Source: Beroe forskalii (taxonomy: Eukaryota; Ctenophora; Nuda; Beroida; Beroidae). Taken from it: a stretch of DNA of 64,000 nucleotides. The translations under genes and the position numbers were made by a program. The stretch is taken from NCBI GenBank assembly GCA_011033025.1, contig WFMF01000011.1, positions 682,001 through 746,000 on the forward strand, written 5' to 3'. Under the pieces are notes generated by a model. The model was given only the letters and a program-made list of their open reading frames with translations, did not search any database and was not told the DNA's origin. This document shows, piece after piece, positions 35,218 to 63,966 of this stretch (positions are counted from its first letter, which is position 1; each line of letters opens with the position of its first letter).

Positions 35218-35321
35218 CATAGCTTCCGACCCTTGAAAATCCGTTCGGAGGGCAGTTTTTGGCCCAAAAAGGAGGGCAAATCAACGAAAAAGGAGGGCAA
35301 TATGCTACCAAAATGTGGCGA

Positions 35322-35360
<39 letters not shown>

Positions 35361-36052
35361 GCCGCCTCAAAAACGCAATCCGAGATAGTGCTTGTTAGGT
35401 GTATTTTCAGAATAATATGGGTGTATTTCAGGAACAAAAGGTGTATTTTAGGTGATTCAGTAAAAGTGTATTTACAAAATCAATCCGAGATAGTGCTTAA
35501 TATGTGTATTTTCCAAATCATGGGTGTATTTCAGGAACGAAAGGTGTATTTTAGGTGAATTCAGTAAAAGTGTATTTGCAAAATCAATCCGAGATAGTGC
35601 TTATTAGGTGTATTTTCCAAATCATGGGTGTATTTCAGGAACGAAAGGTGTATTTTAGGTGAATTCAGTAAAAGTGTATTTGCAAAATCAATCCGAGATA
35701 GTGCTTATTAGGTGTATTTTCCAAATCACGGGTGTATTTCAGGAACTAAAGGTATATTTTTGGTGAATTCAGCAAAAGTGTATTTACAAAATTAATCCGA
35801 GATAGTGCTTTTAAGGTGTATTCCCGAAAAATATGGTCGACCTTTTTTTTTTTTTTTTTTTTGGAAACCGCCGAAAAAAGACCTATTTTAGGCCGTGGAT
35901 TATAAGTGTATTTTAGGAAGGGTCAAAAAGGAGGGCAAATTGGGCCTTAAAGAGGGCAAAAAGGAGGGCTCGGAGGGCAAGACCCAAAAAGGAGGGCAAA
36001 AAGAGGGCATGAGAGGGCGCCCTCTCAAAAAGAGGGCAGTTCGGAAGCTATG
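35218..36052. mobile_element. 835-bp hAT-type non-autonomous element with 8-bp target duplication
   Basis: The termini are perfect 12-bp inverted repeats (CATAGCTTCCGA left, TCGGAAGCTATG right). Identical ATCTTTTA 8-mers flank them at 35210-35217 and 36053-36060. A CA start and 8-bp duplication are hAT hallmarks. Inside are GGAGGGCAAA-rich subterminal repeats, a 30-base T run, and about four copies of a roughly 113-bp unit with CAATCCGAGATAGTGCTTAT and GGTGTATTTCAGGAAC. No transposase is present. Confidence 0.88.
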
Positions 36053-36060
36053 ATCTTTTA

Positions 36061-37383: not shown

Positions 37384-38190
37384 TCACACCTGATTCTTAG
37401 TGTCTGATTCTTCAATAGCATTTTTTTCATTATATTTCTTCCTATGTTTCTTTATGCTTCTTTCCCATGCAGCCCTGTGTTTCTTATATAATTGCAGAGT
37501 AGCTATGGCATCTTCAACAGAATTATGTACACCATTCTGAATGTCATAATTTAACATGAGTTGGCAAAGTTTTTTGAGGGATGGTGTTTTTCCTTTAGAA
37601 GCCACACGAAAGGGTTTATATTTTGCTGTATCCCGTATCAAACTCTTAGGATGTGAGAATCCCAGACAGCTGAAGTCGTGTTTTATGTCATGACCAATAA
37701 TTATTCTACCATCAATCATATCTGCAACTTCTTTTTGGACTTCCTTGAATGCTCTCCCCTTTTTAGAAATTGTTTCTTTATCTAATCCTGTTATGCTGTG
37801 TCTATAATCAGTCACATTTTCTCGAGGAAGAACTATCTGGTCATAAACAGTATGGCCATGAACATTGACAATAGAAACTCTGGCTAATTGATTGGTTGCT
37901 CCAGATGGTCCAGATCCAACCATCTCACAATCTAGTGCAAGCCGTTGAGTTATGATTTCACTTGTTTGGGAGCAAGAAGGTTTAGATATCAGCTCACATT
38001 CATCAGTTTCTCTTTCTAAATCCTTGTCAGATTGTAAAATCATCTTTGAAGCATCCCCAGTTTTGGCTTTGTGTGGACTGTACTTTTGGTTTGATGTTTT
38101 ACTTGAAAGTTCTGCATAAAGTCTATTCCAATTCCTAGCACCAATGGCATCCTTGGAAGCTGCTGGTGTTTTTCTTTTCCTTTTTGCCAT
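37384..38190 (-). CDS. REXO4: REXO4-like 3'-5' exonuclease, intronless
   Basis: An uninterrupted 268-aa frame with a strong DEDDh exonuclease fold. Exo I is LALDCEMVG (D87, E89). Exo II is IIIGHDIKHDFSCL (D172). Exo III is HNSVEDA (H222, D227). The N-terminal 80 residues are basic and low-complexity, as in REXO4, and a basic tail (KKHRKKYNEKN) follows the domain. REXO4 is a nucleolar RNA exonuclease linked to pre-rRNA processing; ISG20 is a shorter relative. All catalytic residues are present, so it should be active. Unlike its neighbours it has no intron, which suggests a retrocopy, although no poly(A) remnant or target duplication was recognised. It lies on the same strand between the Tudor-like and KMT2E-like genes. 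Confidence 0.93.
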   Translation of the reverse strand: MAKRKRKTPAASKDAIGARNWNRLYAELSSKTSNQKYSPHKAKTGDASKMILQSDKDLERETDECELISKPSCSQTSEIITQRLALDCEMVGSGPSGATNQLARVSIVNVHGHTVYDQIVLPRENVTDYRHSITGLDKETISKKGRAFKEVQKEVADMIDGRIIIGHDIKHDFSCLGFSHPKSLIRDTAKYKPFRVASKGKTPSLKKLCQLMLNYDIQNGVHNSVEDAIATLQLYKKHRAAWERSIKKHRKKYNEKNAIEESDTKNQV

Positions 38191-38235
38191 ACAGTAGAAT
38201 AACTCAATAGCAATTTTGTCTAGTTCAAGCTTTTA

Positions 38236-39885: not shown

Positions 39886-39911
39886 ACGTTGTCTGACCCC
39901 TTTGCCTTCCG

Positions 39912-40075
39912 TTAGGGTTTGGGTTAGGGTTGGGTTGGGTTTGGGTTGGGTTTGGGTTGGGTTTGGGTTGGGTTTGGGTTGGGTTTGGGTTGGGTTTGGG
40001 TTAGGGTTTGGGTTAGGGTTTGGGTTAGGGTTTGGGTTAGGGTTTGGGTTAGGGTTTGGGTTAGGGTTTGGGTTA
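39912..40075. repeat. Interstitial telomere-like array (GGGTTTGGGTTAGG)
   Basis: About 160 bp of TTGGG, TTTGGG and TTAGGG units in one orientation. The left half is TTTGGGTTGGG and the right half TTAGGGTTTGGG. It differs from a pure TTAGGG telomere and lies directly next to the 30-bp splice-donor array, inside the Tudor-like gene. Confidence 0.9.
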
Positions 40076-40076
40076 A

Positions 40077-40200
40077 GTGCTGCAATAAGCCAACCTGAAC
40101 ATAGAAGTGCTGCAATTAGCTAACCTGAACATAGCAGTGCTGCAGTAAGCCAACCTGAACATAGAAGTGCTGCAATAAGCTAACCTGAACATAGAAGTGC
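40077..40200 (-). repeat. 30-bp array built on the splice donor of the 40185-40310 exon
   Basis: Four units. On the - strand each is 15 bases of exon (CACTTCTATGTTCAG) followed by 15 intronic bases (GTTAGCTTATTGCAG). Candidate donors therefore recur at exon ends 40185, 40155, 40125 and 40095. The intronic half begins GT and ends AG. The reading frame stays open through all units (ten residues per unit), so readthrough would be in frame. Confidence 0.9.
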
Positions 40201-43200
40201 CCAGCATTATGGATGGCTGACACGTAAACGAGTGAGGAGCCGTTGGGGAGGAAGGCTGATTCTGAAGGTTTAGGGGATTCCACATAGGACCGGTAGTTCG
40301 TGTACACTATCTGGAACATTAATCATCACCAAAACACGAGAAGAATGTAGAATCAAATCGGGCGGAAATTAAACGTAATTTTGTATTTGCAACTAGAATT
40401 GATAGACGACTTGAGAACACTAATAGATAAGGGACGCGACTGATTACAATTTACCAGTCTCAGTGCGCCGGTGGTGGGTTAAGAGTGGAAGTAATGCAGC
40501 AGAATCTAGGGTGGAAGTAATGCAGCAGAATCTGTACCTGATCACAGTGGAGTTTTACTCGGGGGTACTTGACGGCTTTATTGGCTCCCATGTTCTCCTG
40601 AGTGACTGTCAACACTTTGCCTAAGATGTCAGAGTCTCTTGTCTTGATGCAGGGTCCACTGTCCGCTATACTCACACAAACCGCTGAAATTAGGAGGGGT
40701 TTCTACAGCTGAAATTAGGAGGGATTTCTACAGCTGAAATTAGGAGGGATTTCTATGGCTGAAGGAGATAAGGGATTTCTACAGCTGAAGGAGATAAGGG
40801 ATTTCTACAGTTGAAAGGAGATAAGGGATTTCTACAGCTGAATGAGATAAGGGATTTCTACAGCTGAAATAGATAAGGAATTTCTACAGCTGAAGGAGAT
40901 AAAGGATTTCTACAGCTGAAGGAGATAAGGGATTTCTACAGCTGAATGAGATAAGGGATTTCTACAGCTGAAGGAGATAAGGGATTTCTATAGCTGAAAG
41001 AGATAAGGGATTTCTGCAGCTGAAGGAGATAAGGGATTTCTACAGCTGAAGGAGATAAGGGATTTCTACAGCTGAAGGAGATAAGGGATTTCTATAGCTG
41101 AAATAAGGAAGGGTTTCTACAGCTGAAGGAGATAAGGGATTTCTACAGCTGAAGGAGATAAGGGATTTCTATAGCTGAAAGAGATAAGGGATTTCTACAG
41201 CTGAAGGAGATAAGGGATTTCTACAGTTGAAGGAGATAAGGGATTTCTACAGCTGAAGGAGATAAGGGATTTCTATAGCTGAAAGAGATAAGGATTTCTA
41301 CAGCTGAAAGAGATTTCTACAGCTAAGAATGGTTACCGCGCACGGACAGTTACCGGTCTGTTGACGGACACTTAACGAACGGACAGTTACCGGTCGGTTA
41401 CCGCCCACCGACAGTTACTGGTCACTTAATGGTTGGTTAAGTGGCCAGGTAGCGCAGTGGTTTAGGGCGTCGTGCCTCCAATCGAGAGGTTGGTGGTTCG
41501 ATTTCAGGCTGTGTTTAATGTTTATCGTGCTAAGGGTGAGAACTCTCACCTAAGCAGCCACACGGTTCACTCAGCCGAGCGTACAGGAAACTGTGCGGGA
41601 GGGTTAATTAAATGAGGAGCTGCCCATTGCAGCGAAGTCTCGGGCGAAGAAAGTATGGATTACACTTCCTTAAACGTCACACGCTTGATTACCCTTGAAT
41701 CCTTCGATTCCTGTCATTGACTGTTACAGCTGTTGGAATAGAAGTAAAACCATCTAAATAAATTTAAAAAAAAAACAGACGGTTACCGCCCACGAAAAGA
41801 TAACGGTCGGTTAACGGACAGTTACCACCCATGGACAGTTTGAGTTACCAGTCAGTATACTACTGACTCCCTGGTGAACCCCTACCTAACGCCGTGGTGA
41901 ACTCCTACTGAACCCCTGGTGAAACCCTACTGAACACTTCCTGATCATTATTCTAACACTTATCATGACTGATTTAAAAGCACTTAAAATTGATGACACT
42001 TTACTGGTCAATGACCAGTCAACCATAAGATCATAAACGCACTCAAATTTAAGTAAGTTATGACTTGACAAACTTGATTTACTGACTTGACTAATATAAC
42101 AAACTTAAATTTGAGTGCGTTTATGATCTTATGGTCGACTGTTAAATGACCAGTAAAGTGTCATCATTGACCAGTAAATTGTCATCAATTTTAAGTGCCT
42201 TTAAAACAGTCATGAAAAGTGGTAGAATAATGATCAGGAAGTGTTCAGTAGGGTTTCACCAGGGGGTTAGTTGGGGTTCACCAGGGAGTCAGTAGTGGGT
42301 CACCACGGGGTTAGTAGTGGGTCAGCAGGGGGTCAGTAGGGGTTCACCACGGGGTTATTAGTGGGTCACCAGGGAGTCATTAGTATACTGACTGGTAACT
42401 CAAACTGTCCGTGGGTGGTAATCGTTCGTTAACCGACCGTTAAGTGACTGGTAACCGACCGGTCACCGACCGTTAAGTGACCGTCGACAGATTACCAAGC
42501 TGCCCCGTCACATCTCAGCTCCTGAAGTACGAAACATTTCTACAGCACTTTTATCAGGAAAAAAGAACACGACAAGTCATGAAATGGTTTAGAAAGTGAC
42601 AGCAAGCAGAAAAGCAGATTTCAAATAGGTATGTAGTGATGTTTTGCTTTCATAAAACGCATGTAACAATGGGCGTGGCCCGTGCAAACTCTTAAACAAC
42701 TTGTTTTCGACAAAAAGTTATTTCTTCCATTTTTGCGAGTTCTAAAGCAAAACATCTGACGCCAAATGCGAGTTGTGTTGTTGTGAAAAGATGAAAGACG
42801 TTATATTTACCCGTGTCAAGTTGCGCACACTGCTGGATAACAAATGAGAGAGCTGTAGCAATCAATGGAGAGTAAAGACGCGGAAAGGCAAGCTATAATA
42901 ATAAAGGTTAAAAGAGTGTGAGAGTAAGAGAGCAGCAAGCACGACGAGCTAGAGAGATTTAACACTCTCTCTCTCTCTCGTATATATACAGGACCTGATA
43001 ACGTTTAAACAGGGCACCTGCACAAGCAACTACTCTAAGAAGGAGGAATAGTACAATAACAAGTTTAGCAAGGACGCAGTTTAAAGAGAGGAGCATTAAA
43101 ACACACACAGGGTGTTATAACGCAGTGTAAATCGTAAATCACACATTCACTAGCAGGCCATATTATGTGGATATAACGCACATTAACTATCTAATATTAC

Positions 43201-46200
43201 TATCTAATATTACCACGGGTTATGCTTACTTACAAAATGGGGAATGCTTAATGATTTGCTAACCACGAAGTACTTTTAGTATTGATCGCTCATCAGAGAG
43301 TCAAGTAAAAATTATATTCTACCAGATTCTATTGTTCACGCGTTAATATCTATTAAATTCTACAATGCGCTCTCATTTATGATTTCGGATATTTTTCAAC
43401 ATTATACTTTGAATGGTAAGCAAGATTTCTGAGAACATGGATCAGGTATAATATTCTCCCTGAGAAATGTCTTGCTCACATAACGAGGAAACATATGGGT
43501 TCCAAAGTAATTGTTCAAAATATTAGAAGTGTCTAACGAGGACACACTAGTGTCATGACAACACCAGAGAAATACCATGACAACACCACAGTGATACCAT
43601 GACAACACCACAGTTATACCATGACAACACCACAGTGATACCATGACAACACCCCTGTAATACCATGACAACACCACAGTAATACCATGACAACACCACA
43701 GTGATACTATGACAACACCCCTGTAATACCATGACAACACCACAGAAATACCATGACAACACCACAGTAATACCATGACAACACAGTAATACCATGACAA
43801 CACCACAGTGATACCATGACAACACCACAGTGATACCATGACAACACCACAGTAATACCATGACAACACCACAGAAATACCATGACAACACCACAGTACT
43901 ACCATGACAACACCACAGTAATACCATGACAACACCACAGTAATACCATGACAACACCACAGTCACACCATGACAACACCACAGTAATACCATGACAACA
44001 TCACAGTGATACCATGACAACACCACAGTGATACCATGACAACACCACAGTAATACCATGACAACACCACAGTGATACCATGACAACACCACAGTAATAC
44101 CATGACAACACCACAGTAGTACCATGACATACCATAACAATGTAGTGGTCGATTTGGGCAACACCGAAAGTCCTGACCATGACAACCCCACCAGTAGCAC
44201 TGAGACAACACCATGAGAGATTTATATCGAGCCAATGCAGCTCGACGATTCACTCAGCCGAGCGTACAGGAAACTGTGCGGGAGGGTTAAATGAGGTGAT
44301 CCCCATTGCAGCGAAGTCTAGGGCGAAGAAAGTTTGGATTACACTTCCTTAACAGTCACTGGCTTGATTACTTGCTTCGATTGGCTGTACAGCTGTTGGA
44401 ATAGAAGTAAAACGTTCAAGATAAACCGCCATCTTGTCACAAACCTGCAGCAGGGAGATTGGTGATGTCAGAGGGCAGGATGTAGAGACAACGGACAGGG
44501 ACACACAGGAACTGGCCGCTATCCAAATCACAGCAATCCACCAGCGTCCTGGATACCCACTGCAGAGTGCACACCCGCCTTCTCCTTCCAGAGGACAGGT
44601 CCCAGAACAGGTAGTGTACGTACTGAGGGGGTACATGTCAAGATACTAGGCAGGTGACAGGTCCCAGAACAGGTAGTTTACGTACTGAGGGGATACGTGT
44701 CAAGATACTGGGCAGGTAACAGGTTCCAGAACATTTAGTGTACGTACTGAGGGGGTACATGTCAAGATACTGGGCAGGTGACAGGTCCCCAACATGTACA
44801 CACATGTACTGAGGGGTAGGTCAAGACACTGGGCAGGTGACAGGTCCCAGAACATGTAGTGTACACTACCCGTGTTTTGGGAGGTGACAGGTCCCAGAAC
44901 AGGTAGTGTACGTACTGAGGGGGTACATGTCAAGATACCGTCCTGGTGACAGGTCCCAGAACAGGGTGTACGTACTGAGGGGTACGTGTCAAGATACTGG
45001 GCAGGTGACAGGTCCCAGAACAAGTAGTGTACGTACTGAGGGGTACGTGTCAAGATACTGGGCAGGTGACAGGTCCCAGAACATGTAGTGTACGTTCTGT
45101 ACGTACTGAGGGGCAGGTGTCAAGATACTGGGCAGGTGACAGGTCCCAGAACATGTAGTGTACGTACTGAGGGGGTACATGTCAAGATACTGGGCAGGTG
45201 ACAGGTCCCAGAACAGGTAGTGTACGTACTGAGGGGTACATGTCAAGATACTGGGCAGGTGACAGGTCCCAGAACAGGTAGTGTACGTACTGAGGGGGTA
45301 CGTGTCAAGATACTGGGCAGGTGACAGGTCCCAGAACATGTAGTGTACGTACTGAGGGGCATGTGTCAAGATACTGGGCAGGTGACAGGTCCCAGAACAT
45401 GTAGTGTACGTACTGAGGGGGTACATGTCAAGATACTGGGCAGGTGACAGGTCCCAGAACAGGTAGTGTACGTACTGAGGGGGTACGTGTCAAGATACTG
45501 GGCAGGAGACAGGTCCCAGAACAGGTAGTGTACGTACTGAGGGGGTACGTGTCAAGATACTGGGCAGGTGACAGGTCCCAGAACAGGTAGGTGAGGGGGT
45601 ACGTGTCAAGATACTGGGCAGGTGACAGGTCCAGAACAGGTAGTGTACGTACTGAGGGGGTACGTGTCAAGATACTGGGCAGGTGACAGGTCCCAGAACA
45701 TGTAGTGTACGTACTGAGGGGTACATGTCAAGATACTGGGCAGGTGACAGGTCCCAGAACATTTATTGTACGTACTGAGGGGGTACGTGTCAAGATACTG
45801 GGCAGGTGACAGGTCCCAGAACAGGTAGTGTACGTACTGAGGGGTACATGTCAAGATACTGGGCAGGTGACAGGTCCCAGAACATGTAGTGTACGTACTG
45901 AGGGGGTACGTGTCAAGATACTGGGCAGGTGACAGGTCCCAGAACAGGTAGTGTACGTACTGAGGGGGTACGTGTCAAGATACTGGGCAGGTGACAGGTC
46001 CCAGAACATGTAGTGTACGTACTGAGGGGGTACGTGTCAAGATACTGGGCAGGTGACAGGTCCCAGAACAGGTAGTGTACGTACTGAAGGGGTATGTGTC
46101 AAGATACCGGGCAGGTGACAGGTCCCAGAACAGGTAGTGTACGTACTGAGGGGGTACGTGTCAAGATACTGGGCGGGTGACAGAATTCAGAAATATGAAT

Positions 46201-49200
46201 TGGTTCAAGATGATCCGAGATCTTGTATTACCTACCTACCTGTATTAGATCAGAGATAAATAACATGATCAATGACATGACGAATAATTAACTTTTAACC
46301 ACAAAAGACCGGTTGCATCTAACAGGTCAGACAGAAAAGGTGGATATTCTCATGATCCATCATTCTGTACACGAGAACTATATTTGTATTCTCTGTATAA
46401 AATCCACAAGTTGAGTAAGGAACAGATCGATAACAAAGTCATCCCCTCAAATCGCATGGTTACTTCATCAGTGGGTGGTCCTACATATCGCATTGGAAAG
46501 GGCTGTAGAACCCAGTATCAGAGGAGTTTTGTAAAGGGGAGTTGATAAGGGATACCCCGGATTTTCCAGAACCACCATGTATGTCAAGCCAACTGACGCT
46601 ACCCGGTATTTGAACAGGAGGAGTTGCCACAGTAGACATACATTCTCTGGAAATACCCTATTCTCAATTGAGGAGGGCTGCTGTTATATGTTCAGACACA
46701 CAGAGTAGGGAAGCTTGCATAGCAAGAATAGAAATGAAGTTTTCGAACAGTGGGTACAAAATGCAAGATTTAGTTGATGCTAAGCAAAAGGCACTTTCCT
46801 TGAACAGAGATGAACTATTGAACACAAAGAAATAACCGTGTTCAAACCATTTGTGATCAACCAACACCCTGATCTCAGAAAGGAATTATCTAAGTTCTTT
46901 GAGGTCTATGGGGAAAAAGTTCGCACTCCATTGGCTGATGTTAAGATAGTCATTGCTGAAAAAAGGCATAAAACACTACATTGGTTCAGAAATCAGGCTT
47001 CTCCAAAAACAGATTACCTGTCTTTGTCTACTACTAAACGGGGGATGGATCCACGAGAGATCCAAACAGAGTCTCTACACGGGACCTCCCGCTGGGAGGT
47101 CCTGTTGCTAGGGCTACTGTGGATGGGAACGAGTCCCGTACCTCCTCAGGAGGACCAAGATGCCGGGCATCTTGGTGAGGCCAACATGGTTACGGGAAGG
47201 GAATTCTTTGCCCAGTGTTGAGATCCAGGGTACCGTCGGGTCCTAACCCGGGTCAGGACCCGTGGTACTCTTTAAACTGGATCTTCCTGTCGCAAGACCA
47301 GGAGGATCCTAAGGTTAGTTTGCTGCAGGATCGTTGTCGGCTTTTCTAGGTTCCAGTCGCCCAGTCCTATGAGCGTAGCTAAATGTCCCTGTTTATCTTG
47401 AACTTGTCGAAGATGTCGGTCCCCGAGCAGTAGTACCGAAGAACCTGCCCTAATACTGCCCAGGACAGGCACATTCCGAGAAATGTGACACCGTCTCTTC
47501 TTCACTCAGGCAGAGGGATGTTGTATTCAGCGGGGTTCAGTTTTTTTTGAGGTGGTTTAGGCTGCGGGCCAGTCAGAAGTTGAGTGGCCACTCAGGTCCC
47601 TTCTACCCATGCTGCGCAGCTCCTTAGTAAATCTGTCCCTCCACATAATGCCGAACATTCTGGAGGGTCAGCCTTGAAGGAGCTGGTCCAGACTCTCAAA
47701 CGTCTTCCCTTTAAGAGCCGCAACAGACGTTACGCGGAATAGGGAGTAAGACACTGGTGGCGTTAAAGAAGCCATTGGCCGACCCAGCTGCCGTAAGGTC
47801 GGCTAACTCGTTTCCCCTCAAACTACCATGTGGCCGGTATCCAACCGAGTGTTACGTCATTGGATTGGCCCAGTGTTGAGGGAGTTTTTTGGCCCTGAGG
47901 GGTATCTTGTTCTTGATAATCGTGCTGTTAATCGCATGATAGCAGATTTACTGTCACAGTTTATCAAGATCTTGCTGTCCTTCAGTGTGTTCCTGTAAGA
48001 TTTCGGCTTTTTGCGACTGCAAAGACTTCCGCTTGGAACACTGTACTGTGTTTACCCAGGTGGTAGGGTTCACTGTGATTCAGGTGGGCCAAATGTGGCC
48101 CTCCACGTATCACCACCCCTGCTCCTGATTGTCGTGTTAATTCTAGATCCATCAGTATACACACAATGTCATAGTTACCTTCCTCCGGTCCTCCATACTC
48201 GTCCCTCGAGGGGAAGCACACGGTGAACCGCTGGTCAATACTAAGAATTGGCGTTATTGATCGTGTTCCGAGGAGGCTACGCCCCTGGCAGTGCCCTGAG
48301 GAGCTGTTTGTGTCAATGTGGTTAGCGATGCGGACGAGGGTTTCCCAGGCGGCGGAAGACACCAGTGACCATTGGTCTTCAGCCGTAAGGCCTCCCTGCT
48401 GCGCACCCTCGTTAATCCACAAAGTTATTGGGGGCATTCCCGTGATCACATCCAGTGCTGTGTTGGGTGTCAGGAGGGCATGGCTCCTGTTATTAGAACA
48501 TTTGCCAAACTCTGTACCCCCGTAAGCAGTTTCTGGTTAGGTTGTTTCGCATGCCAGTAATCCAGATGGTCGATCCGTACGTGAGTATCGGTCTGACCAT
48601 CACCTCGTAGATCCAGCGCATGGTAGTCGACCATGCCCCAGGTGGGTCCCACCGCTTTCCTGCACTGCATCAGCAAGGCTTGGACTTTGCATGCATATCA
48701 CGTGATCGTTCCACGAAAGTTTCGAGTCAAGAGTGATACCCAGGAATTTCGTGGTCGTTCGCATTTATCTCTACGCCATCCACTTTCAGGGGCCTGGTGA
48801 ATGACCAGTTCTCCTGTTAGTGAACATGACGCAGTGTGTCTTCACGTGGCTCAAGGTGTCTGTGCGATTTGCACCACTGGTTGATATTGTTACACTTTTC
48901 TGCGTTACCTCTCTCAAGGTATCCGCATCAAAGCCTTGGATGTTACAACCTGCTGGTTTTTGGGGTAGACCACAGAGACCAGGGAGATGTCGTCCGCGAA
49001 CCCTTTGCAGGTCGGCGAATCTTATCCCTTGTACTCTAGAAGGTCGTTTATCACGAGGTTCCATAGGAATGGGGATAGAATCTCCCTGGGGACACCCGCG
49101 TAGTATGGCTATGACTTTTCCCTTCCCTGCATCCAACTGTAGGTGCCGGCAGCGGATCATTGACATGATCCATCTGTCTCACACCCCAGATTTGCAGTTC

Positions 49201-52200
49201 TTGGATAGGCATTGCCTATGGAGTCAAACGACACATTGTCGAACGCTCCTTCTATGTCTAGGAAAAAAGTTCCGAGTGCCATTCCTTTGTTAAGGAGAGT
49301 CATCTCGATTTTCCTGACTAGCTTGTGGATAGCGGGCGTTGTCGAGTGGCCCGCTTGAAACCAAATTGTTTTTGCTGAGCCTCTCGTAGATTTTGAGATC
49401 CGCTTCCCATATGTTACAGTATCACCCGCTCCATCCACTTTAAGGATGACGGGTGACAAGGTGATTGTCCTAGCGACTTGGGATTCTGCAATCATCCTTC
49501 CCAGGTTTTGGCAGAAAGATACCACTGGAGTTTCTCCATGTTTCAGGAGTGTGCCCCAATTGGTAGCTTGCTCTAGCAATGCTAATGAAAAGCGTCGCTA
49601 CACTGCCCCAACCCCTTCTGAAGCATGATAGGCCGTATCCTGTCCGACCCACAAGCCGATAGAGGACTGAACCCCTGCAGTGCCCTTTTCACTCTATTCT
49701 CAGAGAATATGTGACCGAGGCCCACGGCTGCTCAGTCCTCATTACGTTTCCTGTGGATTGCTATCCACATGGTTCCCAAGGTCGCCAGTGTATTCTCCGT
49801 CATGCGCCCAGCAGTTTCTGTCGGGGTCTCGGTGAGACTCCCGTCTTTCTTCCTTACTGCGCACAACTTTGTGTCCTTGTTGTCCTTGATGAGGCTAGAG
49901 ATTCTTTTTCGATTCGGATTTGACTCCAATTTCGCGCAGAAATCTCGTATTTCTCGGAGATCACCCGATCCCGGAGTTTTTTCGTATTTTTCCGAGAGTC
50001 CTTTTTCAACGAGTTGAGGTTAGGGTCTCGGTTTTTTTTTAGATGCCTTCCTGATCCTTCCTCTCATCTTCTCCCTCGCATCCTTCACTTCGGCCGTATC
50101 CCACGGTGGGAGTTTAACCTTCGCTGACACGTGCGTCAGCTCGGCAGCCGTGTTGAAGGACGCGATGATGTTTGACGAGAGCAGATCTGCCGCCACGTCC
50201 AGCTTCTCCGATGAATCGATGACGCTGAACGCATTGGCGGGTTTTGACATCCTCTGGCCAGGTCAGACTCAAAGACTTCCCAATTGGTTTTCGAGATGTC
50301 TCTGAAGTTCTGTCTGTCAAGGAGAGTGCTTCCTGTTGATTGGAATGTGATGAAACGGTGGTCCGAGGAGTGCTCTAGTCGATCCTCTCGTGCACCTCCA
50401 GTCCGACACTAGTTTGTGTCCGACCGGTTGGCGATCGGAGGTCTTATAGAGTTACTCCAGCGGCCGTTGTCAAAGGTGGGAGAGTTCCCACATTTCCTCA
50501 ATAAACAGGTCGTTCGCAGTATGTATTCGAGGAGTTTATCTCCTCGTTCCTTGCGTTTTTATCACAGATCCTGCTCTTCCATGCCGTGTTATGGGCATTG
50601 GGAGTCAGTGCCTATGATTAGCGCGGATGTTATGCTTCTTCGCATGGCTGACAAGGTTCTGAAATCCTGCGAGGGGCATTCTACATCGTTGCCGTCCATG
50701 TAGCAAGACGCAACTAGTGTCTCCGTTCCATCCACCTTGGTCTGCACAACTGCACAGTCCCCTGGGGTAGTGATAGAGTCCTTCGACCATACCTGCCGCT
50801 CCATGGATTTGTGGAAAAGATGCTAGCTCTTACAGGTTTCTTAGGGTTCTTGCAGGTTGAAGCCCGCAAAGCAATAAGATCCCTTGAGATCACACCTTCC
50901 CATTGACGTGAGTTCCTGTACAAGTATCAAGGGCTTTTCTATCTTACGAATAAAATAGCCCAAGTCCTTGGAGGCCTGACGTTGTTTATTCAAATTGATC
51001 TGGACAAAGCCCAGACTTTCTTTTGAATTTCTGCCCACCCTTTGCGGCAAACCATAGGTTTTTTTCCGTTGGTATTTTTCTATTAGTCTTAGTGTCGGTC
51101 GGTGGAAGAATCGCAGTTATTCATGGAGGGTAATGGAGTCCAAAAGTCTCCCACCCTCCAGCGAGTGGATTTCCAGTCTACGAACCTTGGCCGACCTATT
51201 ACCCGGGGGTACAGATCACCACGGTTCGCAAGTACATGGAAAATCCAAGCACCGACCCTAGTGAGCACTCTATGACAGCCACGCGCACAAGATGCTGTGT
51301 ACACGTTAATTGATTTTTATGCGCATTAGACCTGTCGAGGAAATCGCGGCGCCGTCCATCATAGTCTTAAAAAGATAAGATACATGACGTGTCGGCTAGA
51401 TATTCCTTATCAGCCTTTTGATATGCACATAGTACATGATCTATCCGGCTGTAACTGCAATCTAGATTACACGAGATAATCCAGTATACAAGCACAAGCC
51501 AGACAGATGTGTACCCGTAGCTTTGTCCAGCCAGTATCCCTGTGTGGGACCACTGTGGGACTGGGTTACGGGTATTTTCTATCGTAGCAGAACCCTCCTC
51601 CAGGGGGGAGAGCCCCCAGCCGCAGCAAGTTCGACCCATCGTAGCAGAGTCTTCCTCCGAGGGAGGAAGTCCTAGCCACAATATGCCTCAGCTCGCCGCA
51701 GCTGAGAACCCCCTGCCTGTGGGAGGTCCTAGCAGCGATATGGTTTGCCGTATCGCATCGAATCCCTTATTTCAGGGTGGGAGTCAACATGGCACGCCTC
51801 AGCCCATCGCCACAGGGTCTTTCTCTGAAGAGAAGCCCCTGCGTCAATGTGTTTCAGCTCACCACGAGGTGCTCCCTTCCTGCTAGTGATCCTAGTGTCG
51901 ATACTGTTTGTCTCATCATAGAAGAGCCCTCCCCTGGGTGGTGCCCCCTGCAGTATAAGCCCCGTATTCACGGCCGCAGAGTCTTCTTCCGAGGAGAGAA
52001 GTCCTAGCAGCCGCAAACTCAAGCCCGCTGTCGCAGGGTGCCCCCTCCCTATGAGAAGTCCTAGCTATGATGAGGTTTGCCCCACAGAATCTCGGGTAGT
52101 GATGGAATATGCCACTTACACTGTTCCCGCCGCTGTGATGCTCTCTTTTGAGACGGTTAGAGTGTCTTCAGCCTCCAGAGGAGGGCCGATAGGATACACT

Positions 52201-55200
52201 CTTACCGTTCCCAGGGTGAGTTTTTAAACCTTATGAAAAGCATAATGTTCATAAAGCGGGAAAAAGGAGGCATAAGCCGAAATAAAGGGTAGAAATGCCA
52301 CTCGTAGGTATAACGGATGATACCCGTCCGGACCGTGGCGCCGAACCAACAGGAGGGCGAGAAAAGGCATTCCGGCTGCCAGTGCAACATCAGCGCAGAC
52401 TCTGATGATAGTAGAGTCTGCCAGTTGCGCCGCGATGGGACCCCCCCGAGAGCCAATAGGTGCCCACTCTAGCTCTCGGAGTTTACCTTCGTTCCTTTGC
52501 CGCCTCCGGGGAAAGGAATCCCCAAGTCTTACCTTGGTGTCCAACATTCCCGGAGGCAGCCCTGTAGCTGGTTTGATAGGCTTGCACGAAGTAATCCACT
52601 GTACCAAGATCAGGTCCAGGCAAGCCTAGACCCGTACTCAGTCAGCAGACTACCCCCCACCTGTCTTTGTCAACTGAGAGGGTTAATGGGAAGAAGTGAG
52701 CTTCAGATAGTACTTGGCCAAATGTAAGATTTGTGATGATCCTCAATCAAAATCCAGCTTCTACTACTCAGTGTCACAATCGGATGAAGAGATGCAATGG
52801 TCGCAGAATGCGAGCGAAGAGTGGTCTCTCCACATTCAAATCCGAGACGGACAGAACCAGGTCGCAACAGGGTTAGGAGGGTTTTGATGCCTCGCCCTCT
52901 GCAACTTTCTAGTCGTTGAAGTTCGGCTGATTACAGCGAATTATGCGCGCTCGTAACGCGCGTGGAGCGAGTTTTGCAGATGGTCCTTGCTACGGGAAAA
53001 TGTCGTTTGTCGTTCGCGTCCAGAAGATGATTCCGTGGGTCATATGATCTTTCCCCAAAAGTGGAACAAATGTCAGATGTGTAAAAATTTGTCGGCATAT
53101 GTCTGAGGCCAGAGTTTGGTTTGGATTGACTTTTTGATGATCTTAATGTGTTGTAGGGGGATTGAATCGATAGTATTGATAAGTTTTTGGTGCTGAATTT
53201 CCACCCTATCTATTAATCGTTAGAAACACTTTCTTAAACATCTCTAGCATCAATTTGATAACCTATGACCCACCTTCAACCGTCAAAAGTACATAGAATT
53301 ATGGGTTATACGTGTTTGGAAATAGGTGGCTTTGGCGGCTATCTGGTGGTATCAGGGTGGCAATTCAGCACCAAAAACTTATCAATACTATCGATTCAAT
53401 CCCCCTACAACACATTTAGATCATCAAAAAGTCAATCCAAACCAAACTCTGGCCTCAGACATATCCCGACAAATTTTTACACTTTTGTTCCAAATATGCT
53501 CAAACATTTGTTCCACTTTTTTGGAAACTCGGCTACGCCTCTGAAATCAAGTATAAAGGTTATGTACCATCTATTAATCGTAAGAAACACTTCCTTAAAC
53601 ATCTCTAGCATCACTTGAGTACCTATGACCCACCTTCAACCGTCAAAGTACATAGAATTACGAGTTATACGCGTAAGAAAATAGGTGGCTTTGGCGGCTA
53701 TCTGGTGGCATCAGGGTGGCAATTCAGCACCAAAAAGCTTATCAATAATTATCGATTCAATCCCCTACAACACATTTAGATCATCGAAAGTCAATCCAAA
53801 CCAAAACTCTGGCCTCACACATATGCCGACAAATTTTACACTTTGTTCCAAATATGCTTAAACATTTGTTCCAATTTTTTAGAAACTGGCTACGCCTCTC
53901 AAATCAAGTATAAAGGTTATGTACCATCTATTAATCGTTAGAAACACGTTCTTAAACATCTCTAGCATCAATTTGAGTACCTATGACCCACCTTCAACCG
54001 TCAAAAGTACATAGAATTACGGATTATACGCCAATGAAAATAGGTGGTTTTGGCGGCTATCTGGTGGCATCAGGGTGGCAATTCAGCACCAAAAACTTAT
54101 CAATACTATCGATTCAATCCCCCACAACACACATTAAGATCATCAAAAAGTCAATCCAAACCAAACTCTGGCCTCAGACATATGCCTACAAATTTTTGTC
54201 TTTGTTCCCAAATATGCTTAAAGAATTGTTCCACTTTTTGGAAACTCGGCTACGCCCTCAAATCAAGTATAAAGGTTATGTGTACCATCTATTAATCGTT
54301 AGAAACACTTTAAACATCTCTAGCATCAATTTGAGTACCTATGACCCACCTTCAATCGTCAAAAAGTACATAGAATTACGAGTTATATGTTTGAAAATAG
54401 GTGGCTTTGGCGGCTATCTGGTGGCACCAGGGTGGCAATTCAGCACCAAAAACTTATCAATACTATCGATTCAATCCCCCTACAACACATTAAGATCATC
54501 AAAAAGTCAATCCAAACCAAACTCTGGCCTCAGACATATGCCGACAAATTTTTACACTTTTGTTCCAAATATGCTTAAAGAATTGTTCCACTTTTTTGGA
54601 AACTCGGCTACGCCTCTCAAATCAAGTATAAAGGTTATGTACCATCTATTAATCGTTAGAAACACATTCTTAAACATCTCTAGCATCAATTTGAGTACCT
54701 ATGACCCACCTTCAACCGTCAAAAGTACATAGAATTACGAATTATACGCGTTTGAGAATAGGTGGCTTTGGCGGCTATCTGGTGGCACCAGGGTGGCAAT
54801 TCAGCACCAAAAACTTATCAATACTATCGATTCAATCCCCCTACAACAAATTTAGATCATCAAAAAGTCAATCCAAACCAAACTCTGGCCTCAGACATAT
54901 GCCGACAAATTTTTACACTTTTGTTCCATTTTTGTTCCATTTTTGTTCCAAATCGGCGAAACATTGACTCCCGTGGGTTGGATGCAAATTGGGAAAATCC
55001 GCGCGCGCTCGATATATGCGATTCTGTAGTTGGGAAAATTTTACCAATTTCTTAAAAGTGACTCAGACTGATTGAATATGATTGAATAGCCGGATTAGAA
55101 TATAATTGAATAGATGATGGTTGGTTGGTAAAGCCACTTTAAGGAGACTTAGCCGTTTTAGGATGCCAGATTGAGGCAAAATACCGAAAACATTTACCCA

Positions 55201-58200: not shown

Positions 58201-61200
58201 TGCATCCAAGTGCATCCAATTTGCATCCATTTTCACGGAATCATGAACTCTTCGCGTCCCAAAGATGACATGTTAGGAATGCTCAAACAAAATGTCAGAA
58301 TGTTTAAAACATCATTCCTAAACTTTTGAAAACTCTGACGAGCTTTCAAATTTTGTTCCAATTTTATTCCAAAAGGTCGAAAACATCAACTCAAGGTGGC
58401 AGCCTTGCCTATGAGACTTGTTTCCATCCACCCCATCTCCTAATAAGTCCCACTTGACGTACTAAACACGGCCATTGACTAGCTGGTAACCTGAACAAGT
58501 TGAATTAGTACTGTAATACTCGCAAATCATTTTAAGAGTGATAAAGACCCACCAGTTTTATAGTATCTGGAATGTCAAGGTTTAAGGGAGCGTGTAGTCC
58601 AGACAGGACCGTTTGCAAGGTGTCATGGATCACAACCCATACATGAGCACAGCAGTCTGCAGCAGTAACAGTCCCAGTGAACTCCCCAACCAATTCAGGA
58701 GCTTCTGATATGGCTGCAAAAGATGGGTGTCAACAAACACAGGTGATGGGTTCAATAAAGTGTAACAAACCAGGCAGAAAAACATGTGTTTAATACTTTA
58801 ATATTCTGTAAATTTCATCACTCATTCAAGTCAACAAGACTACATCACTGAAAGGAAAAAGGGTAGACTAAAAAGACTTACGATTGTGGCAAGAGTAGAC
58901 ATCACAGTGGTTCAGAGGGTCAAAAGTTCGTTCGGCAGTCATCGCGTCACCGGACTTCTCTTCACTGAAACAAGTACAAACCTTATCACACTGCATATTG
59001 ACTGGTCTCCGAAATTCACTTCTAGCTTTCTAGATCAATAAATCGCGATGGTATTTCAAACAACTGTTTTACATCGTCTCCTGCAACCCATTTGTTTTCG
59101 TTACTCACTCTGTCTGCAAGCCGAGCATGGACTTGAGGTTGTTAGTTACTCACTCTGTCTGCAAGCCGAGCAAGGACTTGAGGTTGTTAGTTACTCACTC
59201 TGTCTGCAAGCCGAGCATGGACTTGAGGTTGTTAGTTACTCACTCTGTCTACAAGCTTGAGGTTGTTAGTTACTTGTCGAGAGCATGGACTTGAGGTTGT
59301 TAGTTAATCACTCTGTCTGCAAGCCGAGCATGGACTTGAGGTTGTTAGTTACCACTCTGTCTGCAAGCCGAGCATTGGGTTGTTACTGCCTGAGGTTGGA
59401 CTTGTATTGTTAGTTACTCACTTTTTTGGCAAGCCGAGAATTTGACCACCAGTTTGCAAGCCGAGCAAGGACTGACTTGAGGTGGACTGAGGTTGTTAGT
59501 TACTCACTCTGTCTGCAAGCCGAGCATGGACTTGAGGTTGTTAGTTACTCAGTTAGTTACTCTCTGTCTGCAAGCCGAGCATGGACTTGGTTGTTAGTTA
59601 CTCACTTGTCTGCAAGCTCTGTCTGCAAGCCGTGAGCATGGACTTAAGGTTGTTAGTTACTCACTCTGTCTGCAAGCCGAGCAAGCGGACTTGAGGTTGT
59701 TAGTTACTCACTCTGTCTGCCGAGCATGAATTGAGGTTGTTAGTTACCACTGTCTGCAAGCCGAGCATGGACTTGAGGTTGTTAGTTACTCACTGACGAG
59801 CATGGACTTGAGGTTGTTAGTTACTCACTCTGTCTGCAAGCCGAGCATGGACTTGAGGTTGTTAGTTACTCTGCAAGCCGAGCATGGACTTATACTTGAG
59901 GTTGTTAGTTACTCACTTGCCCTGCAAGCCGAGCATGGACTTGAGGTTGTTAGTTACTCACTCTGTCTGCAAGCTGAGCATGGACTTGAGGTTGTTAGTT
60001 ACTCACTCTGTCTGCAAGCTGAGCATGGACTTGAGGTTGTTAGTTACTACTCACTCTGTCTGCAAGCCGAGCATGGACTTGAGGTTGTTAGTTACTCACT
60101 CTGTCTGCAAGCCGAGCATGGTTAGTTAAGGACTTGAGGTTGTTAGTTACTCACTCTGTCTGCAAAGCATGGACTTGAGGTTGTTAGTTACTTGGAGGGT
60201 TGTTAGTTCTGTCTGCAAGCCGAGCATGGACTTGAGGTTGTTAGTTACTCACTCTGTCTGCAAGCCGAGCACTTGAGGTTGTTAGTTTACTTGAGAGGTG
60301 GTTAGTGACTTGAGTTGTTAGTTACTCACTCTGTCTGCAAGCCGAGCATGGACTTGAGGTTGTTAGTTACTCACTCTGTCTGCAAGCCGAGCATGGAATT
60401 TGAGGTTGTTAGTTACTCACTCTGTCTGCAAGCTGAGCATGGACTTGAGGTTGTTAGTTATCACTCTGTCTGCAAGCAAGCCTGAGGTTGTTAGTTACTT
60501 CATAGACTTGAGGTTGTTAGTTACTCACTCGCAAGCCGAGCATGGACTTTGAGGTTGTTAGTTACTCACTCTGTCTGCAAGCCGAGCATGGCGGGACTTG
60601 AGGTTGTTAGTTACTACTCTGTCTGCAAGCCGAGCATGGACTTGAGGTTGTTAGTTACTCACTCTGTCTGCAAGAAGCTTGAGGTTGTTAGGTTACTACT
60701 TGCCTGACTTGAGGTTGTTAGTTACTCACTCTGTCTGCAAGCCGAGCATGGACTTGAGGTTGTTAGTTACTCACTCTGTCTGCAAGCCGAGCATGGACTT
60801 GAGGTTGTTAGTTACCACTTGCCCGTGCTTGTTACATGGACTTGAGGTTGTTAGTTACCACTCTGTCTGCAAGCCGAGCATGGACTTGAGGTTGTTAGTT
60901 ACTCACTCTGTCTGCAAGCCGAGCATGGACTTGAGGTTGTTAGTTACTCACTCTGTCTGCAAGCCAGTTACTCACTCATGGACTTGAGGTTGTTAGTTAC
61001 TCACTCTGTCTGCAAGCTTAGTATGGACTTGAGGTTGTTAGTTACTCACTCTGTCTGCAAGCCGAGCATGGACTTGAGGTTGTTAGTTACTCACTCTGTC
61101 TGCAAGCCGAGCATGGACTTGAGGTTGTTAGTTACTCACTCTGTCTGCAAGCCGAGCATGGACTTGAGGTTGTTAGTTACTCACTCCTGTCTGCAAGCTT

Positions 61201-63966
61201 GAGCATGGACTTGAGGTTGTTAGTTACTCACTCTGTCTGCAAGTTGAGGTTGTTAGTTACCACTCTGCAAGCCTTGTTAGTGAGCATGGACTTGAGGTTG
61301 TTAGTTACTCACTCTGTCTGCAAGCCGAGCATGGACTTAAGGTTGTTAGTTACTCACTCTGTCTGCAAGCCGAGCAAGGACTTGAGGTTGTTAGTTACTC
61401 ACTCTGTCTGCAAGCCGAGCATGGACTTGAGGTTGTTAGTTACTCACTCTGTCTGCAAGCCGAGCATGGACCAGGTTGTTAGTTACTACTCTGTCTGCAA
61501 GCTGAGCATGGACTTGAGGTTGTTAGTTACTCACTCTGTCTGCAAGCTGAGCATGGACTTGAGGTTGTTAGTTACTCACTCTGTCTGCAAGCAATGCTTT
61601 GTTAGAGCATGACTTGAGGTTGTTAGTTACTCACTCTGTCTGCAAGTTTGAGGTTGTTAGTGTTACTCACTCTGTCTGCAAGCCGAGCATGGACTTGAGG
61701 TTAGCTCACTTGCCTGCAGCCGAGCATGGACTTACTTGAGGTTGTTAGTTACTCACTCTGACTGCAAGCCGAGCATGGACTTGAGGTTGTTAGTTACTCA
61801 CTCTGTCTGCAAGCCGAGCATGGACTTGAGGTTGTCTAGTTAAGGTTGTTAGTTTACTCACTCCGTCTGCAAGCCGAGCATGGATGGACTTGAGGTTGTT
61901 AGTTACTCACTCTGTCTGCAAGCCTAGTATAGACTTGAGGTTGTTAGTTACTCACTCTGTCTGCAAGCCGAGCATGGACTTGAGGTTAGTTAACTCTGTC
62001 GAAGCCGAGCATGGACTTGAGGTTGTTAGTTACTCACTCTGTCTGCAAGCCGAGCATGGACTTGAGGTTGTTAGTTACTCACTCTGTCTGCAAGCCTAGT
62101 ATAGACTTGAGGTTGTTAGTTACTCACCTGTCTGGCAAAGTTTATGGACTTGAGGTTGTTAGTTACTCACTCTGTCTGCAAGCCGAGCATGGACTTGAGG
62201 TTGTTAGTTACTCACTCTGTCTGCAAGCCGAGCATGGACTTGAGGTTGTTAGTTACTCACTCTGTCTGCAAGCCGAGCATGGACTTGAGGTTGTTTGAGG
62301 TTGTTAGTTACTCACTCTGTCTGCAAGCCGAGCATGGACTTGAGGTTGTTAGTTACTCACTCTGTCTGCAAGCCGAGCATGGACTTGAGGTTGTTAGTTA
62401 CTCACTCTGTCTGCAAGCCGAGCATGGACTTGAGGTTGTTAGTTACTCACTCTGTCTGCAAGCCGAGCATGGACTTGAGGTTGTTAGTTACTCACTCTGT
62501 CTGCAAGCCGAGCATGGACTTGAGGTTGTTAGTTACTCACTCTGTCTGCAAGCCGAGCATGGACTTGAGGTTGTTAGTTACTCACTCTATCTGCAAGCCG
62601 AGCATGGACTTGAGGTTGTTAGTTACTCACTCTGTCTGCAAGCCGAGCATGGACTTGAGGTTGTTAGTTACTCACTCTGTCTGCAAGCTGAGCATGGACT
62701 TGAGGTTGTTAGTTACTCACTCTGTCTGCAAGCCGAGCATGGACTTGAGGTTGTTAGTTACTCACTCTGTCTGCAAGCCGAGCATGGACTTGAGGTTGTT
62801 AGTTACTCACTCTGTCTGCAAGCCGAGCATGGACTTGAGGTTGTTAGTTACTCACTCTGTCTGCAAGCCGAGCATGGACTTGAGGTTGTTAGTTACTCAC
62901 TCTGTCTGCAAGCCGAGCATGGACTTGAGGTTGTTAGTTATTTACTCACTCTGTCTGCAAGCCGAGCATGGACTTGAGGTTGTTAGTTACTCACTCTGTC
63001 TGCAAGCCGAGCATGGACTTGAGGTTGTTAGTTACTCACTCTGTCTGCAAAGCCGAGCATGGACTTGAGGTTGTTAGTTACTCACTCTGTCTGCAAGCCG
63101 AGCATGGACTTGAGGTTGTTAGTTACTCACTCACTCTGTCTGAGGTTGTTAGTTACTTTCACTCTGTCTGCAAGCCATGGACTTGAGGTTGTTAGTTACT
63201 CACTCTGTCTGCAAGCCGAGCATGGACTTGAGGTTGTTAGTTACTCACTCTGTCTGCAAGCCGAGCATGGACTTGAGGTTGTTAGTTACTCACTCTGTCT
63301 GCAAGCCGAGCATGGACTTGAGGTTGTTAGTTACTCACTCTGTCTGCAAGCCGAGCATGGACTTGAGGTTGTTAGTTACTCACTCTGTCTGCAAGCCGAG
63401 CATGGACTTGAGGTTGTTAGTTACTCACTCTATTTGCAAGCCGAGCATGGACTTGAGGTTGTTAGTTACTCACTCTGTCTGCAAGCCGAGCATGGACTTG
63501 AGGTTGTTAGTTACTCACTCTGTCTGCAAGCCAGGCATGGACTGGAGGTTGTTAGTTACTCACTCTGTCTGCAAGCCGAGCATGGACTTGAGGTTGTTAG
63601 TTACTCACTCTGTCTGCAAGCCGAGCATGGACTTGAGGTTGTTAGTTACTCACTCTGTCTGCAAGCCGAGCATGGACTGGAGGTTGTTAGTTACTCACTC
63701 TGTCTGCAAGCCGAGCATGGACTGGAGGTTGTTAGTTACTCACTCTGTCTGCTAGCCGAGCATGGACTTGAGGTTGTTAGTTACTCACTCTGTCTGCAAG
63801 CCGAGCATGGACTTGAGGTTGCTAGTTACTCACTCTGTCTGCAAGCCGAGCATGGACTTGAGGTTGTTAGTAAGCCGCTTGTTGACACCTTGTCCTGAGA
63901 TCACACTAGAGAGAATCATCGAGTTAGGTGGGGTGTTGGGAACCAACGTCTCCATGCTTTCAGATC
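40185..63966 (-). CDS. Multi-Tudor-like domain protein, six exons, incomplete at both ends
   Basis: Exons in order: 63834-63966, 58882-58964, 58553-58713, 44445-44622, 40538-40683, 40185-40310. All five junctions agree in phase and have AG/GT borders, 827 nt in total. Reading through them gives GEFTGTVTAADCCAHVWVV, then YVHYLFWDLSSGRRRR, RTLVDCCDLDSGQFLCVPV and LYILPSDITNLPAA, then DILGKVLTVTQ and YPRVKLHCD. This order fits an extended Tudor domain (barrel core plus SN-like strands). SSLVYVSAIHNAGHFYVQ would begin a second one. The aromatic cage is poorly conserved (VDCCD for VDYGD), so ligand binding is doubtful. Tudor proteins of this kind act in germline RNA granules, but no orthologue is claimed. 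One intron is 13.9 kb. Further exons below 40185 were not found, and a link to the KMT2E-like exons cannot be excluded. Confidence 0.62.
40684..41325 (-). repeat. 26-bp array built on the acceptor of the 40538-40683 exon
   Basis: About 23 copies of a 26-bp unit; on the - strand CTGTAGAAATCCCTTATCTC followed by CTTCAG. The array touches the exon. The unit next to the exon ends CTCCTAATTTCAG, the real acceptor. Each unit is thus a pyrimidine tract plus a TTCAG acceptor-like end. Confidence 0.9.
41330..42490. mobile_element. Foldback element interrupted by a SINE
   Basis: The left arm (about 41778-42053) and right arm (42104-about 42425) are long imperfect inverted copies. Both hold GATCATAAACGCACTCAAAT or its complement and GTTCACCAGGG/CCCTGGTGAAC repeats. 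Outer parts at 41330-41440 and 42415-42490 share GGTTACCGGTCGGTTA-type sequence in inverted orientation. The SINE at 41442-41775 splits the left arm, so the SINE is the younger insertion. Confidence 0.7.
41442..41775 (+). mobile_element. tRNA-derived SINE with poly(A) tail
   Basis: The tRNA-like head has an A box (TAGCGCAGTGG at 41450-41460) and a B box (GGTTCGATT at 41495-41503) at tRNA spacing. A body follows with GAGCGTACAGGAAACTGTGC, then GCAGCGAAGTCTCGGGCGAA, ending in TAAATTTAAAAAAAAAA. This is the fullest copy in the window; parts recur at 12391-12545 and 44247-44416. It interrupts one arm of a foldback element. Transcription would be by RNA polymerase III, with mobilisation in trans by a LINE. 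Confidence 0.88.
42491..43550. other. Intronic stretch without recognised features
   Basis: This lies in the 3.8-kb intron between the exons at 40683 and 44445. A (CT)n run sits near 42964-42980. No exon, repeat array or RNA gene is supported. Confidence 0.4.
43552..44140. repeat. 22-bp minisatellite (ACCATGACAACACCACAGT type)
   Basis: About 26 copies of a 22-bp unit, core ATGACAACACCACAGTGATA plus CC, with A/G variation (GTAATACC, GTGATACC). The - strand frames through it (CCHGITVVLSWY and similar) follow from the repeat period of three units per 22 residues and are not genes. Confidence 0.92.
44247..44416 (+). mobile_element. 5'-truncated copy of the tRNA-derived SINE
   Basis: It starts within the body at TTCACTCAGCCGAGCGTACAGG and follows the 41442-41775 copy to GTTGGAATAGAAGTAAAACG. 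The tRNA-like head is missing. It ends about 30 bp from the Tudor-like exon at 44445. Confidence 0.85.
44623..46175 (-). repeat. ~61-bp array built on the acceptor of the 44445-44622 exon
   Basis: About 25 units of 60-62 bp. On the - strand each reads TATCTTGACACGTACCCCCT CAG, then TACGTACACTACCTGTTCTG GGACCTGTC, then ACCTGCCCAG. The exon at 44622 begins with the same 29 bases (TACGTACACTACCTG through GGACCTGTC). Every unit therefore repeats the acceptor and the first 29 exon bases, encoding YVHYLFWDL. Long open frames on the - strand result from this. Confidence 0.92.
46176..47035. other. Intronic stretch before the retrotransposon
   Basis: AT-rich. A + frame at about 46838-47035 (YGEKVRTPLADVKIVIAEKR region) is cut by the retrotransposon and may be a remnant of an older coding element. 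I do not recognise it. Confidence 0.3.
47036..52759 (-). pseudogene. Decayed non-LTR retrotransposon (R1/LOA/I-like, with RNase H)
   Basis: Reading on the - strand from 52.7 kb down. An endonuclease start (SLGFVQINLNKQRQASKDLG, then LILVQE) lies near 51.0 kb. A Pro-rich linker with LPPWDTAEVKDAREKMRGR follows near 50.1 kb. Reverse transcriptase comes next, with WRNSSGIFLPKPGKDDCR near 49.5 kb, IWFQAGHSTTPAIHKLV, FLDIEGAFDNVSF near 49.25 kb, and a GFADDISL box near 48.99 kb in another frame. A thumb region follows near 48.6 kb. An RNase H-like part (SGAGVVIRGG, then STVFQAEVFAVA) lies near 48.1 kb. Frameshifts and stops break every domain, so it is dead. A 9-bp TCTACTACT at 47027 and 52760 may be the target duplication. 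An RNase H domain after an APE-type endonuclease and RT suggests the R1, LOA or I group. Confidence 0.88.
52996..53205. repeat. Inverted partial copy of the 358-bp satellite
   Basis: Bases about 53080-53205 are the reverse complement of the middle of the satellite unit that follows (TTTGTCGGCATATGTCTGAG through AGTATTGATAAGTTTTTGGT). It sits head to head with the array. Just outside, CACGGAATCAT-type sequence (complement) at about 53025 recurs in the opposite orientation at about 58232, past the second satellite. Confidence 0.75.
53206..54965 (+). repeat. ~358-bp satellite, five copies
   Basis: Units start at about 53265, 53626, 53983, 54342 and 54701, measured at ATGACCCACCTTCAACCGTC. Copies differ by small indels. 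Recognisable blocks are GGTGGCTTTGGCGGCTATCT, ACTTATCAATACTATCGATT and TGGCCTCAGACATATGCC. The frame through copies is not conserved because of the indels, so coding is unlikely. Confidence 0.92.
54966..55797. other. Spacer between the two satellites
   Basis: It starts with a GC patch (CGCGCGCGCTCGATATATGCG) and continues with degenerate CCCAAAA/TTTTGGG-rich sequence that looks like an old relative of the following satellite. No gene is supported. Confidence 0.45.
55798..58215. repeat. ~315-bp satellite, seven copies, first copy inverted
   Basis: Units begin at about 56150, 56459, 56771, 57100, 57422, 57741 and 58066, measured at CTCTCAGTGATGGCC. Blocks include CATATTCCAACCATTTGGAA, TTTTCACCCGGAAAACGACG and GGGAAAATGCATCC. 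Bases 55800-55925 hold the same sequence in reverse orientation, then flip at TAGGACCGCTAAAAAGCC. ATTTTCCCAAAATTGGGAAAAT palindromes lie within units. The array ends at 58190-58215 in broken CATCCA repeats. Confidence 0.92.
59085..63876 (-). repeat. 45-bp array (~100 copies) built on the donor of the 63834-63966 exon
   Basis: On the - strand each unit is 38 exon bases (ACTAACAACCTCAAGTCCAT, then GCTCGGCTTGCAGACAGA) plus the 7-base donor GTGAGTA. The exon end is identical to the first unit. The part next to the exon (about 62145-63876) is almost perfectly homogeneous. The far part (59.1-62.1 kb) is scrambled by many indels and partial units. The 45-bp period keeps all frames open (MDLRLLVTHSVCKPS on +), which explains the large spurious frames. 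Confidence 0.95.

Follow-up and report, generated by a model that had tools for sequence, protein, structure and literature searches.

Tandem arrays at exon-intron borders of a putative Tudor-like gene in the ctenophore Beroe forskalii: probable mirage-type minisatellites, with one border present singly in a paralogue

How does a splice site come to lie inside a tandem array of short units, or exactly at its edge, as happens several times within one gene of the ctenophore Beroe forskalii? The gene lies on the minus strand of a 64,000-nucleotide stretch of DNA (the window; positions 682,001 to 746,000 of contig WFMF01000011.1, here C110:682001-746000). Its model, which is plausible as read from genomic sequence, has six exons, E1 to E6, that join into a single open frame, each of the five junctions being consistent in phase. 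An earlier note on this DNA had held that the arrays are unlikely to lie at splice sites by chance, and had proposed a mechanism seeded at exon-intron borders as a new kind of intron growth. We found that the observation is mostly right and that one case is well documented. The phenomenon is of a known kind, and a new mechanism is not supported. The exons of the model are as follows.

63834..63966, minus strand: exon E1; 5' edge putative; open frame, with a phase 2 junction to E2
58882..58964, minus strand: exon E2; phase-consistent frame
58553..58713, minus strand: exon E3; phase-consistent frame
44445..44622, minus strand: exon E4; matches the second half of a Tudor domain weakly; may instead start at 44559
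40538..40683, minus strand: exon E5; phase-consistent frame
40185..40310, minus strand: exon E6; phase-consistent frame; the translation ends ...GHFYVQ and the intron begins GTTAGC

There are 11 inner exon borders in this model, rather than the ten counted earlier, and the four said to be affected are indeed in or flush with a tandem array. Three of the introns are long (4869, 13930 and 3761 bp) and two are short (168 and 227 bp). About half of the interval 39911-63871 consists of tandem repeats, as summed from the list of arrays. The origin of such an array can be followed most directly at the donor of E1.

59100..63871, minus strand: 45-bp array spanning the E1 donor; 99 recognisable units

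The E1 donor after 63834 reads CAGACAGA on its exon side and GTGAGTAAC on its intron side, and the 45-bp unit contains 36-38 exon bases and 7-9 intron bases. A partial duplicate of the gene lies on the same contig at about 604-615 kb, 122-134 kb from the window copy (loci L014/L015, matching 44594-65477 of the window), and carries E1, E2 and E3 plus their splice sites. The same end of E1 and GTGAGT donor are present there (C110:611326-611461, 98% identity). E2 differs at one of 83 bases, and E3 at 11 of 161, with four of 53 residues changed and the splice sites unchanged. The duplicate has the E1 border once, as ...GCAGACAGA followed by GTGAGTCACGAAAAC, whereas in the window ...GCAGACAGA is followed by GTGAGTAAC, then by the repeats, and then by GAAAAC. 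In this comparison, which is between paralogues and not alleles, the 45-bp unit is present once in the duplicate and 99 times in the window; intron 1 is 145 bp long in the former and 4869 bp in the latter. Searching the genome with the unit (all genome-wide sequence searches covered 216 Mb of contigs) returned matches only from the window array and from the single copy in the duplicate. Because the duplicate has this border in unexpanded form, we read the array at 63834 as a multiplied exon-intron border, as the earlier note had claimed. A new intron in a once-continuous exon is not seen; the duplicate also has intron 1. The unit starts and finishes with TAAC, and both TAACs are retained at the junctions between units (GTGAGTAACTAACAACC, 79 times). 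The duplicate is without the 327-bp array found at 55.9-58.2 kb of the window, and ends within a 62-bp array that is described below.

Two further arrays lie at the borders of E5 and E6 (TRF, Tandem Repeats Finder; a slash marks the border).

40683..41320, minus strand: 26-bp array flush with the E5 acceptor (TTTCAG/CGG); 24 copies at 40695-41314 by TRF
40075..40200, minus strand: 30-bp array spanning the E6 donor; units of 15 exon and 15 intron bases, 4.2 copies

Both had been described correctly, the acceptor at 40683 as the edge of 26-bp units ending in TTCAG and the donor at 40185 as lying in 30-bp units that are half exon and half intron. E5 has no more than a single C in common with the 26-bp unit, and the array halts at the acceptor; a genome search with this unit returned no match outside the array. 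The unit holds the border together with exon bases at 63834 (36-38) and at 40185 (15), while 40683 is flush only, and the status of the fourth border, at 44622, hinges on the choice of acceptor. By extension from 63834, the arrays at 40683 and 40185 may also have originated in duplications of their borders.

We consider it fairly probable that these arrays are mirage-type minisatellites, of the kind named in amphioxus (see below), which arose by ordinary tandem duplication and growth in short introns without any border-specific mechanism. A short tandem duplication would first arise inside a short intron or across its end. It would be tolerated, with the splice site beside the untouched exon remaining usable and the extra copies becoming intron, and duplications that left no usable outer site would be lost. 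Unequal exchange or slippage would then multiply the unit, and the intron would gain kilobases. On this account, splicing of the mRNA from the outer site would be normal. Many arrays would sit on borders because array-free introns are only about 100-260 bp long and because duplications without an outer site are lost; a special border-seeding mechanism is not needed. The array at 44622 would be a separate case, a dispersed 62-bp repeat in intron 3 that abuts the start of E4 or supplies it.

44594..46183, minus strand: 62-bp array reaching 29 bases into putative E4 (TRF)

This array has its edge at 44594 and includes 29 putative exon bases, as had been reported, with a unit of 62 bp by TRF in place of the 61 bp given before. 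Members of the 62-bp family are present at five other places, namely the duplicate at C110:604k and contigs C325, C2, C201 and C289; C443 and C271 carry short pieces of the repeat. The copies on C201 and C289 (L018 and L019) have about 3 kb of flanking sequence in common, on both sides of the array, and the copy on C2 (L017) shares about 0.5 kb of it, as expected for a larger dispersed element. These three loci contain a dispersed element that carries the 62-bp repeats. Because the unit belongs to a dispersed family, the array at 44622 was probably not produced from the border of E4. The local border supplies the unit at 63834, where the duplicate has a single copy, and probably does not at 44622.

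The dispersal of the 62-bp unit favors another explanation, in which mobile or dispersed satellites, the 62-bp and 30-bp repeats, settled at exons and came to serve as splice sites. The 30-bp unit forms further arrays across 8.5 kb of contig C170 (31.9-40.4 kb), the longest of which (34168-37565) covers 3.4 kb. They adjoin exons of a BK channel (joined by eye; best PDB match E 3e-22). The same 8.5 kb (L060-L068) consists of unique sequence broken up by repeat fragments, and the presence there of the unit from the E6 border could possibly reflect a translocation, or a misassembly or misjoin. On the other side, E6 ends in HFYVQ, which is encoded by the 30-bp unit and, judged by eye, fits the start of a Tudor domain, so the unit may have started at a Tudor exon; the 45-bp and 26-bp units look local. 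We regard recruitment of satellites as a serious contender with slightly less than an even chance of being right. The description of the four arrays as arrays of themselves holds at 63834; it was not confirmed for all four, with the 62-bp unit dispersed and the 30-bp unit also on C170.

It is rather less likely that the borders are partly artefacts, with the gene truncated or misassembled at 40075, the true acceptor of E4 at 44559, and only one or two border arrays left. The acceptor at 44559 lies outside the array and is also in phase 0. Both sites score weakly (-0.7, against 0.4 for 44622), and joining E3 to 44559 or to 44622 gave near-equal Tudor scores (13.3 and 13.8 bits), which makes the earlier choice of 44622 less certain. 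Tudor similarity in E4 begins only past the repeat-derived codons. At the other end of the model, we saw no further exon of the gene among the open reading frames (ORFs) between 40075 and an exonuclease gene at 38232, and an ORF inside the region of 30-bp arrays on C170 scores as the second half of a Tudor domain (E 1.5e-4). The array that abuts the 30-bp array at this end is telomere-like.

39911..40075, plus strand: telomere-like (GTTAGGGTTTGG)n array, abutting the 30-bp array

Against an artefact, the borders of E5 and E6 are phase-consistent and the border of E1 is shown by the duplicate. The frame and phases of the gene stood up, and its Tudor identity is weakly indicated: E4 matched PF00567 with E 5e-4 in one joined query and with E 0.01 to 0.09 in three others. 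Pfam gave no match to E1-E3 alone or to E5-E6 alone, and a genome search with the E4-E6 protein had the gene itself as its sole match.

We used other Tudor exons of the genome as an independent sample in which to compare border arrays with chance. A genome search with PF00567 gave 34 matches at 30 loci. Seven of the 30 loci were excluded, six as long open frames (L022, L023, L025, L026, L031 and L035) and one as cut off (L030), which left 23 internal exons with 46 borders. The splice sites of these 23 loci were chosen by score and by hand, without RNA, and several are below the top score. Two of 36 merged arrays contain a border, with the L032 acceptor placed at 1507 (the L032 array is 6 bp off). 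The arrays of L044 and L045 repeat the acceptor of a Tudor exon plus 36 and 33 coding bases, respectively; they are alike and are perhaps a single event. The L045 exon matches PF00567 with E 1.1e-8. Many Tudor exons are clustered at C234:247-336 kb, where arrays lie at or near borders in L036, L038, L043, L044 and L045.

Introns free of arrays are short: the duplicate has lengths of 145 and 154 bp, the window has 168 and 227 bp, and other loci have about 107-264 bp. We therefore also derived an expectation for short introns, using nine intron lengths (107-264 bp) and the observed unit sizes (14-49 bp), with both strands scanned. The lengths of 107 and 112 bp have poor sites, the values from the BK-channel gene are approximate, and a length of 87 bp with a poor donor was left out, as was an array inside an exon (L024), leaving 13 arrays. 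Seven of the 13 are within 10 bp of a border, compared to 5.1 expected (P 0.20). The result was similar without the paralogue L045 (6 of 12 compared to 4.5, P 0.26) and when the two poorest lengths were dropped (P 0.13 and 0.19). A randomly placed unit in a short intron often touches a border, so short introns and tolerance of duplications suffice, provided that the array-bearing introns once resembled the others. The conclusion on border bias therefore depends on original intron length.

Several observations weigh against ordinary duplication in short introns. When arrays were re-placed at random, only 1.7 of the 36 were expected within 10 bp of a border, compared to seven observed (P 0.001), and when the introns were doubled in length the expectation for the 13 was 2.5 (P 0.005). 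Nine lengths make a small set, some of them with poor sites, and the window's introns of 4869, 13930 and 3761 bp were excluded as presumed swollen. Four affected borders of 11 within one gene are many. At 63834, the breakpoints of the 45-bp unit share just two bases (AC), which gives no clear signature of a duplication mechanism, and the duplicate may have reached its single copy by contraction. Moreover, units 1-40 (on the exon side) and the final three match the border unit at 97-99% identity, while those in the middle of the array are ragged (87-95% identity, many gaps), and this raggedness may reflect assembly errors.

The two excesses and the four borders in the window gene are also what favors duplications seeded preferentially at exon-intron borders, whether by R-loops, by transcription-coupled breaks or by slippage at repeats that resemble splice sites. 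This explanation appears doubtful to us. There was no significant excess at the measured intron lengths, and the claim that a chance location is unlikely was not confirmed, since the outcome changes with intron length (P 0.20 or P 0.005). Seeding was not supported by the units themselves. Among 102 distinct arrays (period 15-120, at least 2.5 copies) from the window, L009-L021 and 29 Tudor loci, donor-like motifs were not enriched in the units (two at a score of at least 4, compared to 9.0 in shuffles) and acceptor motifs were not significant (8 compared to 6.0 at score 4 and 3 compared to 1.0 at score 6, P 0.08), in a test that is weak, as even the proven 45-bp unit reaches a score of only 2.8. 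Triple AGGTRAGT strings in the genome numbered 1518, fewer than the reversed string (4532), although this count is a weak guide because repeat families appear to dominate it. A codon-usage exon finder could not separate real from reversed sequence and was dropped.

Reinsertion of splicing by-products (lariats, spliced or back-spliced RNA) at the border, also raised in the earlier note, would put copies at borders and otherwise found no support; it is very improbable because the units are contiguous genomic exon and intron sequence, not spliced RNA, and have no fixed splice-site register, with exon bases per unit of 36-38, 29, 15 and 0 in the window and 36, 33 and at most 2 in the sample.

Other features of the window lie within or beside the gene. 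A large insert in intron 3 is absent from the duplicate, which has 54 bp between the flanking matches.

47031..52672, minus strand: non-LTR (long terminal repeat) retrotransposon-like insert in intron 3; reverse-transcriptase-like ORFs by eye

Intron 4 contains two copies, one of them partial, of what looks by eye like a tRNA-derived short interspersed element (41430-41760 and 44240-44410). The exonuclease gene mentioned above (37387-38232) is a single-exon 3'-5' exonuclease gene (RNase_T; best PDB match ISG20-like 2). A scan of eight sources with Rfam gave no match. In the genome, a let-7-like hairpin scored 46 bits, under the cut-off of 53.5, and searches for GFP-family proteins and for mir-17 returned nothing, results that do not establish absence; the lack of GFP-family matches fits, weakly, a genome other than amphioxus.

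Intron 1 in the two copies of the gene, 145 bp long with a single unit and 4.9 kb long with 99, gives a clean view of how an intron is built up out of its border. Should mirages prove common here, the genome would suit measurements of intron growth and of whether spare splice sites ever turn into new introns. A stronger proposition, that tandem duplication in this animal is biased to exon-intron borders and that mirages, here outside the amphioxus lineage, are a main route by which its short introns reach kilobase lengths, seems unlikely to us.

Growth of introns in this manner is not new. The name mirages was given in amphioxus to tandem repeats that span exon-intron borders, and such repeats were put forward there as a route of intron gain (PMC3087553, PMC3902484, in the sections available). 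As far as those sections describe them, their units are 10-72 bp in Adh3 and 150-160 bp in the globins, lie on the donor or the acceptor side, and leave splicing undisturbed (PMC3087553). Among the listed titles of the open-access papers searched, we recognised no report of mirages by that name outside amphioxus. Tandem duplication more generally is a described route of intron gain, and a duplication in the potato RdRp gene crosses an intron-exon boundary (PMC3443670, PMC4974935, from the parts available). The likeness to our case, at that depth of description, is that splice sites are copied when a segment across or close to a splice signal is tandemly duplicated; the difference is that here an existing intron differs in length and no intron is new. 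In human genes within segmental duplications, the accessible part of one report describes minisatellites with units averaging 30 bp that vary in number between paralogues and lie partly at exon-intron boundaries (PMC2812944). Half of those repeats are in coding exons and some create introns, whereas our gene model puts the extra copies in introns. The closest counterparts are the amphioxus mirages of Adh3, the globins BflGb6 and BflGb9, troponin C and PGBD5, in which, according to the portions available, the unit likewise runs across a donor or acceptor next to a normal exon and the splice signals are repeated. The array at the E1 donor differs from them in having 99 units over 4.8 kb, as read from genomic sequence.

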